From NCBI RefSeq assembly GCF_000017265.1, contig NC_011143.1:62001-126000 (forward strand): a stretch of 64,000 nt of DNA. The letters are read 5' to 3'. The translations under genes and the position numbers were made by a program. This document shows, piece after piece, positions 7,320 through 55,131 of this stretch. Within the stretch, counting starts at the first letter, position 1. Every line of letters begins with the position of its first letter. This DNA is from Phenylobacterium zucineum HLK1 (lineage in GTDB: Bacteria; Pseudomonadota; Alphaproteobacteria; Caulobacterales; Caulobacteraceae). The notes under the pieces are model-generated. The model saw only the letters and a program-made list of their open reading frames with translations, searched no databases and was not told where the DNA came from.

Positions 7320-7498
7320 GGTCGATCGGCTCGAATGCGGCGAAGGCGCGCACCGACGGTCAATCACCTGGCCCGCTGGCATGCCGGGCCCCCGATCAGG
7401 CGGCCCAAGAGCCATCAAGCCGATGGCGCGCGCCATACGCTGACTTGTCCGCCAGCTTCGCCGACCTAGATCGTGGAAGTACAGGACGGGAGGGGACC

Positions 7499-17343: not shown

Positions 17344-17371
17344 CTTGTGCGGGTGAGGGGCCGCCCTAACT
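17344..17371 (+). promoter_or_regulatory. Sigma32-like promoter for the peroxiredoxin gene
   Basis: CTTGTG (17344-17349), 14 bases, CCCTAACT (17364-17371). It is one of the clearest members of the heat-shock-type promoter set in this window. It lies 79 bases upstream of the peroxiredoxin ATG. Confidence 0.65.
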
Positions 17372-17449
17372 CACGCCTGAGCCGCGGTCCCACGGCCGCG
17401 GACGATCCACCCATTGGACAAGGACAGCTTCAATCAAGGGAGCACAGCC

Positions 17450-26146: not shown

Positions 26147-26680
26147 TTAGGCGGCCTTACGCCGGGCGCGCTTCGGCTTCTCAAGGGCGGCGTCGTTGGC
26201 CGGCGCGCCGGGTGCCGCCGCCGCGCCGGAGGGCTGCGCCCTCGTGTTCGAGACCACCTCCGGCGTGCGGATGCCGATCCGGCGTGGCCTCACTGCCTCG
26301 GGCAGCTCGCGCTTCAGCTCGACGTTGAGCATGCCGTTGTCGTAAGTCGCCCGGCTGACGACGACGTAGTCGGCCAATTCAAAGCGCCGGTCGAACGCGC
26401 GAGTAGCGATGCCGCGGTGCAGATAGTGTCGCGGCTCGTCCGATCTCGCCTTGCGGCCGCTGATGGTCAACTGGTTGGGCTCGGCGACGAGTTCGAGCTC
26501 GTCCGGGCTGAAGCCGGCCACGGCGAAAGAGATGCGGTACTGGTCGTCCGCAAGCTTCTCGATGTCGTAGGGCGGATAGCTCGCCTCGTCCGGCATACGC
26601 ATGGCGTTCTCCAAAGCGCCGATCAGGCGTTCGGCTCCGACCATGGAACCGTAGAGGGGCGAAAGGTTCAGGGCTTTCAT
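26147..26680 (-). CDS. Small heat-shock protein Hsp20, IbpA-like
   Basis: 177 residues of the IbpA/HspH class: N-terminal GSMVGAERLIGAL and YPPYDIEK, crystallin domain with YRISFAVAGFSPDELELVAEPNQLTISGRK, the beta5-6 arm, the NGMLNVELKRELPE strand pair and the RIGI anchor. A Pro/Ala/Lys-rich tail of about 35 residues is extra. It is an ATP-independent holdase for aggregating proteins. ATG 26680 has AAGGAGGA, which is masked by a ROSE-like hairpin, and a sigma32-like promoter lies at 26767-26794. It leads the operon with pta and ackA. Confidence 0.92.
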   Translation of the reverse strand: MKALNLSPLYGSMVGAERLIGALENAMRMPDEASYPPYDIEKLADDQYRISFAVAGFSPDELELVAEPNQLTISGRKARSDEPRHYLHRGIATRAFDRRFELADYVVVSRATYDNGMLNVELKRELPEAVRPRRIGIRTPEVVSNTRAQPSGAAAAPGAPANDAALEKPKRARRKAA

Positions 26681-26685
26681 CTCCA

Positions 26686-26702
26686 GTCCTCCTTGAAGCA
26701 AC
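26686..26702 (-). promoter_or_regulatory. ROSE-like RNA thermometer hairpin before hsp20
   Basis: The minus-strand RNA GUUGCU-UCAAG-GAGGAC folds so that U-U-(G)-C-U pairs with A-G-G-A of the ribosome binding site, leaving one bulged G, the hallmark of ROSE elements of rhizobial small heat-shock genes. It sits at the 3' end of a 5'UTR of about 80 bases that starts at the sigma32-like promoter 26767-26794. Fold assigned by hand. Confidence 0.65.
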
Positions 26703-26766
26703 GTGGATATGACGCCGACTTGGCGACGGGCCGCGACCCAGCAGAGGCGCCGCGGCCTTGAGCTGG

Positions 26767-26794
26767 ATTTAGGTCGAGGCGGGTCCCGCACAAT
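26767..26794 (-). promoter_or_regulatory. Sigma32-like promoter for the hsp20-pta-ackA operon
   Basis: On the minus strand ATTGTG (26794-26789), 14 bases, ACCTAAAT (26774-26767). It fits the set found at 17344, 45211, 46009, 47449 and 57546. Together with the 5'UTR it fills the left part of the 339-base gap 26681-27019; the rest of that gap (26795-27019) shows no gene on either strand. Confidence 0.65.
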
Positions 26795-31955: not shown

Positions 31956-31983
31956 CTTGCAGGGCGTGATGAGCGCCCTACCT
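31956..31983 (+). promoter_or_regulatory. Sigma32-like promoter for the hsp20-hsp20 operon
   Basis: CTTGCA (31956-31961), 14 bases, CCCTACCT (31976-31983). It gives a 5'UTR of about 90 bases that ends in a ROSE-like hairpin before the ATG at 32080. Confidence 0.65.
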
Positions 31984-32050
31984 CAAGTCTTGCCGGACGC
32001 TGATGAAGGTTCGGCGGCGGGCGCCGGCGTTATCCGGCGCTCCCCAACGC

Positions 32051-32076
32051 CCATGTTGCTCAACGGAGGGACTTGG
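32051..32076 (+). promoter_or_regulatory. ROSE-like RNA thermometer hairpin before hsp20
   Basis: Bases 32051-32060 (CCAUGUUGCU) pair with 32067-32076 (AGGGACUUGG shifted over the ribosome binding site GGAGG), giving a ten-position stem with one G-G and one U-U mismatch and loop CAACGG. UUGCU opposite AGG-A with an internal G is the ROSE signature. Fold assigned by hand. Confidence 0.65.
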
Positions 32077-32079
32077 ACC

Positions 32080-32556
32080 ATGAGGATGAACACTATGACG
32101 CCGATGTCGGGCTATCGGCCCATGCCGAGCGTCGACGGTGCGCTGAGCCTGATGGACCGTGCGATGAGCGGCTCGGTCCCTGGTCTCAACTGGCCTCCCT
32201 ACAATGTCGTGCAGGCCGACGGCGATCACTACCGCATCGTTCTTGCGGTGCCGGGTTTCCGCGATGGCGATCTGGAGATCGTCTCCGAACCCAACCGGCT
32301 GACCGTCAGCGGCCGGCCGCAGGAGGTGCAGGAGGACGGCGAGGTCGTCTACCGCGGCATCGCCCAGCAGCCGTTCCGTCGGACCTTCGAGCTCGCCGAC
32401 CATGTGCACGTGCAGAACGCGCGCCTGGAGAACGGCCTGCTGACCCTCGAGCTGGTGCGGGAGATCCCCGAGGCCCTGAAGCCGAAGCGGATCCAGATCA
32501 CCGGTTCGGGCCAGTCCGCCATCGGCTCGGGCGAGTCGGAGCAGAAGACCCAGTGA
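32080..32556 (+). CDS. Small heat-shock protein Hsp20, IbpA-like
   Basis: 158 residues of the IbpA/HspH class, close to the protein at 26147-26680: WPPYNVVQADGDHYRIVLAVPGFRDGDLEIVSEPNRLTVSGR, beta5-6 loop VYRGIAQQPFRRTFELADHV, NGLLTLELVREIPE and the KRIQI anchor. It is an ATP-independent holdase. ATG 32080 is chosen because GGAGGGACTTGGACC precedes it. Expression probably requires both the sigma32-like promoter at 31956 and melting of the hairpin at 32051-32076. Confidence 0.92.
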   Translation: MRMNTMTPMSGYRPMPSVDGALSLMDRAMSGSVPGLNWPPYNVVQADGDHYRIVLAVPGFRDGDLEIVSEPNRLTVSGRPQEVQEDGEVVYRGIAQQPFRRTFELADHVHVQNARLENGLLTLELVREIPEALKPKRIQITGSGQSAIGSGESEQKTQ

Positions 32557-44906: not shown

Positions 44907-45113
44907 CTACTTGAAGTTGGGAGCGATCAGCATCGCCGCGGCGGCGAGCAGGCCCAGCGTAAGCAGGCCGAACATGCCGACGCGATCGACAGTCCGCTCC
45001 AGCTTCGGGAAGGTCGCGGTCTCCAGGGCGTGGATGGCCTCGGCCTCCCGCCGACGCAGGTCTGTGCCTTCGGCCGACAGCCAGCGCCGGACATCGCGGA
45101 ACAGGTTTCTCAT
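44907..45113 (-). CDS. 68-residue membrane protein under heat-shock-type control
   Basis: A basic, amphipathic N-terminal part (MRNLFRDVRRWLSAEGTDLRRRE, then AIHALETATFPKLERTVDRVG) is followed by one membrane helix (MFGLLTLGLLAAAAMLIA) and a short PNFK end. Unknown function; a membrane-anchored helix of this type might bind nucleic acid or lipid head groups. ATG 45113 has GGAGG at ideal distance, and an earlier in-frame ATG at 45119 lies too close to it. The ribosome binding site is masked by a ROSE-like hairpin and transcription should start at the sigma32-like promoter 45211-45238. Confidence 0.75.
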   Translation of the reverse strand: MRNLFRDVRRWLSAEGTDLRRREAEAIHALETATFPKLERTVDRVGMFGLLTLGLLAAAAMLIAPNFK

Positions 45114-45114
45114 G

Positions 45115-45141
45115 ACCATATCCTCCGAAAAGCAACATGGT
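45115..45141 (-). promoter_or_regulatory. ROSE-like RNA thermometer hairpin before the 68-residue protein
   Basis: Minus-strand RNA ACCAUGUUGCU (45141-45131) pairs with AGGAUAUGGU (45124-45115): ten pairs with a single bulged G in UUGCU, covering GGAGGA and the first ATG, loop UUUCGG. A GC hairpin (about 45150-45175) lies upstream in the same UTR, as in multi-stem ROSE elements. Fold assigned by hand. Confidence 0.7.
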
Positions 45142-45210
45142 GACGAGAGGGCCGCGGGGAGGGTCCCCGCGACCGTCTGCCGGGCCCATGGCGGCGCCCG
45201 GCAATAGGCG

Positions 45211-45238
45211 ATTTAGGGCGCGCGCACCGGCGCGCAAC
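45211..45238 (-). promoter_or_regulatory. Sigma32-like promoter for the 68-residue protein gene
   Basis: On the minus strand GTTGCG (45238-45233), 14 bases, CCCTAAAT (45218-45211), in the space after the dps stop. It gives a 5'UTR of about 92 bases. Confidence 0.65.
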
Positions 45239-45246
45239 GCTGCAGA

Positions 45247-45747
45247 TCAGTTGGGCGCGAGCGTCGCGCGCAGCATCCAGGCCTGCTTTTCGTGCGCGGC
45301 CAGCCGATCGTTCAGCAGGTCGACCGTCGCGGCGTCGCCCGCCGCCTCCGCCGCCTGGATCGCGGCCTTGACCGTGCCGCACACCTGCTCGTGGTCGCTC
45401 AGCAGGTCGCGCAGCATCTCCTGAGCGCTCCAGTGCGGATCACCGTCCTTCACTCCGGTCAGGTTCGCCATCGAGGCGTAGCCCTGGGGCGCAAGCGCCC
45501 CCAGCGCGCGGATCCGCTCGGCGATCTCGTCGAGGGAGGCCCAGAGCGACTTGTACTGTTCCTCGAACAGATGATGCAGCGCCGGGAACTGCGGTCCGCG
45601 GACGTTCCAATGGTAACCGTGGGTTTTCAGGTAGAGCGCGTGCGTGTCGGCGAGCAGCTTGCCGAGCGCAAGCGCGACCTGATTGGCGCCGGCCGCGGGC
45701 GCCGAAGCCGCCGGCGAACTCGTCTTGGGCGTCTCTTGAGTCAGCAT
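45247..45747 (-). CDS. dps: Dps family DNA-binding ferritin
   Basis: 166 residues: a disordered Ala/Ser/Pro N-terminal arm, then the ferritin four-helix bundle with ALYLKTHGYHWNVRGPQFPALHHLFEEQYKSLWASLDEIAERIRALG, which supplies the His, Asp and Glu ligands of the inter-subunit ferroxidase site, and a closing helix AAHEKQAWMLRATL. It oxidises and stores iron with H2O2 and protects DNA. ATG 45747 follows TTGGAGGACAAGC. It lies 59 bases downstream of the 42-residue gene and is probably transcribed from the sigma32-like promoter at 46009-46036. Confidence 0.93.
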   Translation of the reverse strand: MLTQETPKTSSPAASAPAAGANQVALALGKLLADTHALYLKTHGYHWNVRGPQFPALHHLFEEQYKSLWASLDEIAERIRALGALAPQGYASMANLTGVKDGDPHWSAQEMLRDLLSDHEQVCGTVKAAIQAAEAAGDAATVDLLNDRLAAHEKQAWMLRATLAPN

Positions 45748-45806: not shown

Positions 45807-45935
45807 TTACGGGGTCATGAACCCGCCGGTCTGGCCCATCCGCTCCAGCGATCGGCCAAGCTCGCGGCCGAGCCGCCGCAGGGCCAGACGGACGCGGCGC
45901 CAGCCCGCGCGGGTCCATGGGTTCAGCTTTGCCAT
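45807..45935 (-). CDS. 42-residue Arg-rich peptide under heat-shock-type control
   Basis: A tiny gene: MAKLNPWTRAGWRRVRLALR is followed by RLGRELGRSLERMGQTGGFM and TP. It forms one strongly basic amphipathic helix (11 Arg/Lys in 30 residues) and has no membrane segment. ATG 45935 has GGAGG 12 bases upstream, within a ROSE-like hairpin, and a sigma32-like promoter lies at 46009-46036. It is the first gene before dps. A role in binding nucleic acid or a membrane surface is conceivable; nothing similar comes to mind. Confidence 0.65.
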   Translation of the reverse strand: MAKLNPWTRAGWRRVRLALRRLGRELGRSLERMGQTGGFMTP

Positions 45936-45937
45936 AG

Positions 45938-45960
45938 CCACATCCTCCGTGAGCACATGG
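45938..45960 (-). promoter_or_regulatory. ROSE-like RNA thermometer hairpin before the 42-residue gene
   Basis: Minus-strand CCAUGUGCUC (45960-45951) pairs with GAGGAUGUGG (45947-45938) around loop ACG, ten positions with one central G-G mismatch, masking the GGAGG ribosome binding site. GUGCU takes the place of the ROSE UUGCU. Fold assigned by hand. Confidence 0.65.
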
Positions 45961-46008
45961 GTATGGACGGCCCTGTCGGGCCTCGCGGCTCCCGCCGCTC
46001 AGAATCTG

Positions 46009-46036
46009 ATCTAGGGCGCGGCGGGCCGCCCGCAAT
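46009..46036 (-). promoter_or_regulatory. Sigma32-like promoter for the 42-residue gene and dps
   Basis: On the minus strand ATTGCG (46036-46031), 14 bases, CCCTAGAT (46016-46009), in the space after the terC stop. 5'UTR of about 68-75 bases. Confidence 0.65.
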
Positions 46037-53664: not shown

Positions 53665-53871
53665 ATGAACCGCCGCTTTGTGATCGCCAAGCTTCGAGGA
53701 GCGCAGGACGTCTCTGGGATCATACTTCCGGAGACCACGGATCGCTCGCAGCTGCTGCAGCGCGGGGCTGAACTTCTCTCCCACCTGACAGCGTCGCGCG
53801 TGGGTCCGCAAGACGTGGAGCTGCTTCCCTATTTCCCGCCGGAACGCGACCAGATCCGCCTGGCCTCGTGA
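53665..53871 (+). CDS. Small hypothetical protein
   Basis: 68 residues, soluble, with a strand-like start (RRFVIAKLRGAQDVSGIILPE) and a middle helix LLQRGAELLSHLTASRV. There is no good ribosome binding site before ATG 53665, but the frame is clean and fills the 268-base space before the SMP-30 gene. Not recognised. Confidence 0.4.
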   Translation: MNRRFVIAKLRGAQDVSGIILPETTDRSQLLQRGAELLSHLTASRVGPQDVELLPYFPPERDQIRLAS

Positions 53872-54986: not shown

Positions 54987-55014
54987 CTTGTGCGGATTGG
55001 ACTTTGACCTAGTT
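54987..55014 (+). promoter_or_regulatory. Sigma32-like promoter for hsp20 at 55218
   Basis: CTTGTG (54987-54992), 14 bases, ACCTAGTT (55007-55014). It gives an unusually long 5'UTR of about 195 bases. Confidence 0.6.
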
Positions 55015-55131
55015 CATCCTTTGCCGCCCAGTGGCGGCCGAGGAGTTCGTCGGCCGGGGACCTGGCCGGCGCGCCGCACGTGGCGACGCGGCACGGTCCC
55101 GGTGTCATGGACAGCCGGTCAGGCGGGCGCC

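Follow-up and report, generated by a model that had tools for sequence, protein, structure and literature searches.

ROSE elements of the family RF00435, whose founding member belongs to Bradyrhizobium hspA, are RNA thermometers of alphaproteobacterial hsp20 genes, and the rpoH1 gene of B. japonicum lies in a ROSE-controlled operon. The present element precedes a gene of 68 codons in Phenylobacterium zucineum HLK1. The genome of this strain consists of two contigs, and the stretch analysed here, referred to as the window, comprises 64,000 nucleotides of the 383 kb contig C1 (C1:62001-126000). The leader of the 68-codon gene resembles the alphaproteobacterial hsp20 ROSE in its full-length match to the model, in the UUGCU with a bulged G, in the predicted hiding of both the Shine-Dalgarno (SD) sequence and the AUG, in its location directly before the start codon and in its heat-shock-type promoter, but the target is a 68-residue membrane-type protein and not an Hsp20. 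The novelty lies in the target and not in the RNA, whose family is known: the encoded protein is small, uncharacterised and likely to take part in the membrane heat-shock response.

A canonical, high-scoring ROSE on a gene of a kind other than hsp20 is unusual. The rhlA gene of Pseudomonas aeruginosa, listed as a ROSE case in a 2026 review (PMC13104619), likewise lies outside the small heat-shock genes. According to that review, the rhlA anti-RBS departs from U(U/C)GCU, whereas the motif is canonical here, and rhlA belongs to rhamnolipid synthesis under quorum sensing, whereas the 68-codon gene lies in a heat-shock island. ROSE elements were in this study also detected before RpoH genes (loci L118, L147 and L151), which share with the present case a target other than Hsp20 and differ in that the target is a regulator and the hosts belong to other alphaproteobacterial families. 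Among the papers found in literature searches, in which subscription journals are thinly covered, no title or abstract opening reported a ROSE-controlled small membrane protein.

The ROSE element and its predicted fold

A covariance search of the window with the Rfam models gave a single match reaching the gathering score, RF00435 at 45107..45201 on the minus strand (68.9 bits against a gathering score of 45, E 3.1e-8). The match covers the full model (1-94), and the equivalent leaders in two relatives score 67.7 bits each, also above the curated cut-off. The element is 95 nt long and stands directly before the start codon, the order on the minus strand being a Dps-like gene, a promoter-like site (45210-45237), the ROSE and the 68-codon gene (44907-45113). 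An earlier note made from this DNA had placed a ROSE arrangement on the 68-residue gene at 45115-45141 and had named a search with the Rfam ROSE models as a check. The search has borne out the arrangement, with the difference that the site given is the core of the last hairpin and the whole element is larger.

Three hairpins are predicted in the leader, within the two to four expected of a ROSE. The z-score of the fold was −4.12, and none of 200 shuffled sequences was equally stable. The last, thermosensing hairpin (45108..45148, minus strand) is composed in the minimum-energy fold of an inner stem at 45115-45141 and an outer stem of six pairs, formed by 45143-45148 with 45108-45113, in which the AUG at 45113 is paired. 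The single bulged G described in the earlier note is found at 45133 within UUGCU, opposite the SD sequence and in agreement with the anti-SD motif U(U/C)GCU, and the SD sequence GGAGGA (45121..45126, minus strand) is hidden as the note had said, all but its first G lying in the paired arm. The count of ten pairs did not hold, since the inner stem has 11 in the minimum-energy fold, one of them a terminal U-G.

The three DNA copies of the leader differ by one base in the last hairpin, where U-A becomes U-G and pairing is kept, and by a change from U-G to U-A in the second hairpin. All stem changes are one-sided, and the variation among the three copies is too slight to reveal covariation.

To free the SD sequence, the energy model requires 7.9 kcal/mol at 25 °C and 5.8 kcal/mol at 42 °C; the corresponding costs in both orthologues are 6.8 and 4.6 kcal/mol. 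For 61 Hsp20 ROSE elements the median cost is 5.2 kcal/mol at 25 °C (10-90% range 4.8-7.3) and 3.8 kcal/mol at 42 °C (3.5-5.6). The value of 5.8 kcal/mol at 42 °C exceeds this range. The prediction is accordingly of a leader closed more tightly than most ROSE elements, a mild argument against its opening readily at 42 °C. Energy models handle the non-canonical pairs of ROSE elements poorly. The high cost at 42 °C, along with the two further stable hairpins of the leader, would suit a static translational repressor that keeps the protein scarce, so that the promoter alone induces and little melting takes place at physiological temperatures. We regard such a static role as rather unlikely, given that both orthologues carry the weaker U-G pair in the last hairpin and that the UUGCU with its bulged G opposite the SD sequence has been kept, a feature described as essential for melting in the ROSE elements studied elsewhere (PMC3669281, PMC13104619).

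The heat-shock-type promoter

The sigma32-like promoter claimed for the gene could be located at 45210..45237 on the minus strand. The site reads TTG-N17-CCTAAATC, combines a TTG −35 with a C-rich, CCTA-type −10 at heat-shock spacing, and is kept in two relatives. A TTG in the −35 region is described as important for both RpoH factors of R. sphaeroides (PMC3441632).

The pattern TTG-N17-CCTANNTC was derived from the four ROSE-type leaders of the window, and is present upstream or at the 5′ edge of all four. One of the others, all three of which are additional to the earlier note, belongs to a neighbouring gene of 42 codons, where the promoter, TTG-N17-CCTAGATC at 46008..46035 (minus strand), was assigned by the pattern and a comparison of the relatives. 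The remaining two belong to genes recognised as Hsp20 by PF00011. Gene 32080-32556 has the promoter pattern at 31957-31984 and a ROSE-type leader at 31993..32086, both on the plus strand, and gene 26147-26680 has the pattern at 26766-26793 and a leader at 26674..26754, both on the minus strand; these leaders score below gathering (41.8 and 31.7 bits, respectively).

Seven occurrences of the pattern were counted in the window, where 0.06 are expected. Beyond the four defining sites, it was noticed on the plus strand at 7445-7472 before an ORF of 84 codons that has no assigned family, at 17345-17372 before an AhpC/TSA gene and at 54988-55015 before an Hsp20 gene to which no ROSE match belongs. 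In the whole genome it was found 13 times (9 on C1) and a reversed control pattern 7 times, which means that the enrichment belongs to C1 and not to the chromosome. The non-defining sites precede a chromosomal Hsp20 gene with its own weak ROSE match, two further Hsp20 genes, genes of the AhpC/TSA, Usp and GST families, and ORFs without assigned family. No RF00435 match up to E 10 was obtained for the Hsp20 gene behind the site at C1:44695. The chromosomal dnaK gene carries TTG-N16-CCCCATAT in the same register, and in the two dnaK loci of C1 no comparable site was seen at the expected position.

Outside this type of island the pattern, with its last C omitted, was found near the 5′ end of 31 of 61 ROSE elements, against a mean of 0.03 matches in base-shuffled sequence; the 61 were taken from the first 70 matches of the survey described below. 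Heat-shock-type transcription of the 68-codon gene is well supported by these sequence patterns, and the promoter would be served by an RpoH sigma factor.

The 68-residue protein, its neighbour and the stress island

The 68-codon gene is a real, conserved gene. Among 5.8 billion proteins searched, 14 clusters of homologues of its product, P0001, were found (E 2e-25 or better), all of them 68 residues long and 76-96% identical; the divergent metagenomic homologues P0006-P0015 are 76-84% identical. The ATG at 45113 is the likely start, because an upstream in-frame ATG (45119) is a GTG in both relatives. M1 and R2 are invariant among the homologues, which may be due to the first codons also sitting in the RNA stem. 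P0001 had no match in Pfam or PHROGs at E up to 10 and none in plasmid records, and the alignment of its family (A1) had none in IMG/VR.

The protein has a net charge of +3 and begins with a basic amphipathic segment. Hydropathy indicates one hydrophobic stretch near the C-terminus, at residues 45-63 (mean hydropathy 2.28), predicted to be a transmembrane helix in accordance with the membrane protein proposed before. The structure model is a single long helix (mean pLDDT 72, pTM 0.35). In NCBIfam a match to the NHLP-clan precursor model NF038399 was seen at E 0.0073 and was taken as chance, with 16.4 bits against a cut-off of 40.

Between TerC and Dps, 0.8 kb upstream of the 68-codon gene, lies the gene for a cationic protein of 42 residues (P0016; 45807..45935, minus strand), with a net charge of +8, a strongly amphipathic character (hydrophobic moment up to 0.87) and 4 homologue clusters. 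Its leader (45929..46025, minus strand), the first 18 nt of which overlap the promoter, is predicted to fold with the SD sequence hidden and is without one U of the UUGCU. With 28.9 bits against RF00435 (E 0.043 in the genome) it falls below the gathering score of 45 and is for this reason termed ROSE-like only. Of the 101 genus genomes, the 42-codon gene is present in the three that also carry the 68-codon gene, its possible partner.

This cationic neighbour and the NF038399 match, far below cut-off as it is, could be taken as signs that the 68-residue protein does not protect the membrane but is itself a secreted or membrane-active peptide, as a RiPP-type precursor or a toxin-like peptide would be. 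That is very unlikely in our judgement: the homologue P0012 has no NF038399 match, no maturation enzyme or antitoxin family was found among the selected neighbouring ORFs that were scanned, and the hydrophobic C-terminal helix is strongly conserved.

Three of the 101 genus genomes, its own included, carry the 68-codon gene, as do three of the 299 family genomes that were sampled. Three weak partial matches aside, it was found in none of 385 genomes of the class beyond its own. These three and six weak matches in the genus, which were left uncounted (E 5e-4 to 0.01 with A1), were rejected as homologues, all being partial and two having internal stops. In two other Phenylobacterium genomes the promoter, the ROSE and the 68-codon gene are kept together, and so are the gene order TerC, 42-residue protein, Dps, 68-residue protein and much of the surrounding island. 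The Dps-like ferritin gene that separates the two small genes is located at 45247..45747 (minus strand; PF00210).

Stress and proteostasis genes make the whole window (1-64000) a large island, which is found in synteny and with high identity in the two other Phenylobacterium genomes. Among the selected ORFs scanned, the chaperones were four Hsp20, the C-terminus of a Clp disaggregase, GroEL, GroES and a DnaJ-type protein, and the proteases were FtsH, Lon and two of DegP/HtrA type. YfdX, two DUF308 (the family of HdeD), two BON, AhpC/TSA, glutaredoxin, a KefB-type antiporter, the Dps-like ferritin, TerC and PEP carboxylase were also found. On C1, the window lies between two DnaK genes (C1:57457 and C1:131742). 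A search for RepC (PF03428), bearing on the nature of the 383 kb contig, gave no match. Another ORF of 68 codons, at 53665-53871 on the plus strand, has no Pfam or NCBIfam match and is about 90% identical in the islands of both relatives.

The closest described island is the tLST, or locus of heat resistance, for which the core set of sHsp20, ClpK, sHspGI, YfdX/Psc, KefB and DegP on a mobile island was used here. Compared with its description in PMC8407380 and PMC8290217, the likeness is in the kinds of genes: Hsp20, the C-terminus of Clp disaggregase, YfdX, DUF308 (HdeD-type), KefB-type antiporter, DegP-type proteases and glutaredoxin. Unlike the tLST described there, the present island is larger and adds GroESL, FtsH, Lon, Dps, TerC, PEP carboxylase and the two small genes.

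The earlier note had concluded that the gene encodes a candidate new heat-shock protein, and this is supported at the sequence level by the ROSE match, by the joint conservation in two relatives and by the surrounding heat-shock and quality-control island. Probably, a ROSE and a heat-shock-type promoter gate a conserved putative membrane protein under heat shock. The leader would hide the ribosome-binding site and the start codon until the bulged-G hairpin opens at elevated temperature, and synthesis of the protein would thereby be confined to heat shock. The protein is likely held in the inner membrane, with its N-terminus presumably inside. More speculative than the other steps is the function: the basic N-terminal helix might act at the inner face of the membrane and so protect it, or alternatively might steer a partner in membrane quality control, for instance the FtsH encoded in this same island. 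An unannotated protein is in this way singled out as a likely heat-shock component, under a double control like that of the ROSE-controlled chaperones. Such control would mean that the protein is undesirable at normal temperature and has to be supplied rapidly upon heating, and the gene may offer a simple entry into membrane protection within heat-resistance islands.

Genes located behind ROSE elements

A total of 102 ROSE matches were examined for the gene that follows. Of these, 70 came from the P. zucineum genome itself (n = 5), the search of 299 family genomes (n = 54) and that of 385 class genomes (n = 11), and the new 32 from 398 genomes of the phylum. The searches were run with strict filters at the loss of weak matches, and the two weak matches L006 (18.8 bits) and L007 (17.1 bits) of the own genome were excluded. 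An Hsp20 gene followed 90 of the 102, some of them sub-threshold matches. The counts lack independence, because many of the 102 come from related species. The statement in the earlier note that ROSE elements occur mostly on small heat-shock genes agrees with this count. Three other matches in the P. zucineum genome precede Hsp20 genes, with 41.8, 31.7 and 21.9 bits.

The 12 matches without a full Hsp20 gene preceded the 68-codon gene (n = 3), the 42-codon gene (n = 1), sigma-32-type genes (n = 3), truncated Hsp20 ORFs (n = 2) and ORFs of no assigned family (n = 3), the last behind weak matches (L088, L089 and one in L151; 32.4-38.6 bits). The 68-codon gene departs from the usual Hsp20 target, which as rhlA illustrates is not a required one, in that it encodes a protein without Pfam match.

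The two truncated Hsp20 ORFs (L034:1501-1584 and L133) are possible cases of decaying thermometer genes. Such relic elements do exist, and the ROSE studied here might accordingly be thought the remnant of a lost or truncated hsp20, with the 68-codon ORF incidental and the regulation functionless for it. This is highly improbable, as nothing Hsp20-like is left behind the element, the protein is full-length in all 14 clusters, and the three copies of the ROSE, at 67.7-68.9 bits, outscore every other one of the 56 matches in the family sample. In the phylum sample, rhizobial-type genomes score higher, up to 87.8 bits.

The promoter and ROSE were instead probably captured as a unit from an hsp20 gene, since none of the three hairpins is missing from the match and hsp20 is the usual target of a ROSE. 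A broader version of this idea, which we put forward tentatively and hold to be somewhat less than an even chance, is that promoter plus ROSE form a portable cassette captured from hsp20 by genes of tiny membrane-active proteins. The tail-anchored 68-residue protein and its cationic amphipathic neighbour of 42 residues would then represent small heat-shock proteins of a new class, gated by a thermometer and acting on the membrane instead of on soluble aggregates. As a rule for further searches, we suggest looking for non-hsp20 genes behind ROSE elements.

The sigma-32-type genes of L118 and L151 were identified by NCBIfam and Pfam, and that of L147 by Pfam sigma-70 domains and its likeness to L118. 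They directly follow their ROSE elements at L118:1501-2340 (87.8 bits), L147:1-841 (70.8 bits) and L151:8871-9863 (38.5 bits). The proteins of L118 and L147 open with an Hsp20-like stretch, MRTYDITPLRRS, which in L118 resembles an Hsp20 from the same genome (L139, MRTYDFTPLWRS). The start of the L118 ORF suggests that capture of a ROSE can extend to the first hsp20 codons. In the third locus, three ROSE matches are found within about 13 kb (L151:5682-18824, contig C11 of genome G1046), before an Hsp20 gene, the sigma-32 gene and, weakly, an ORF of 128 codons, and the region is perhaps another heat-shock island.
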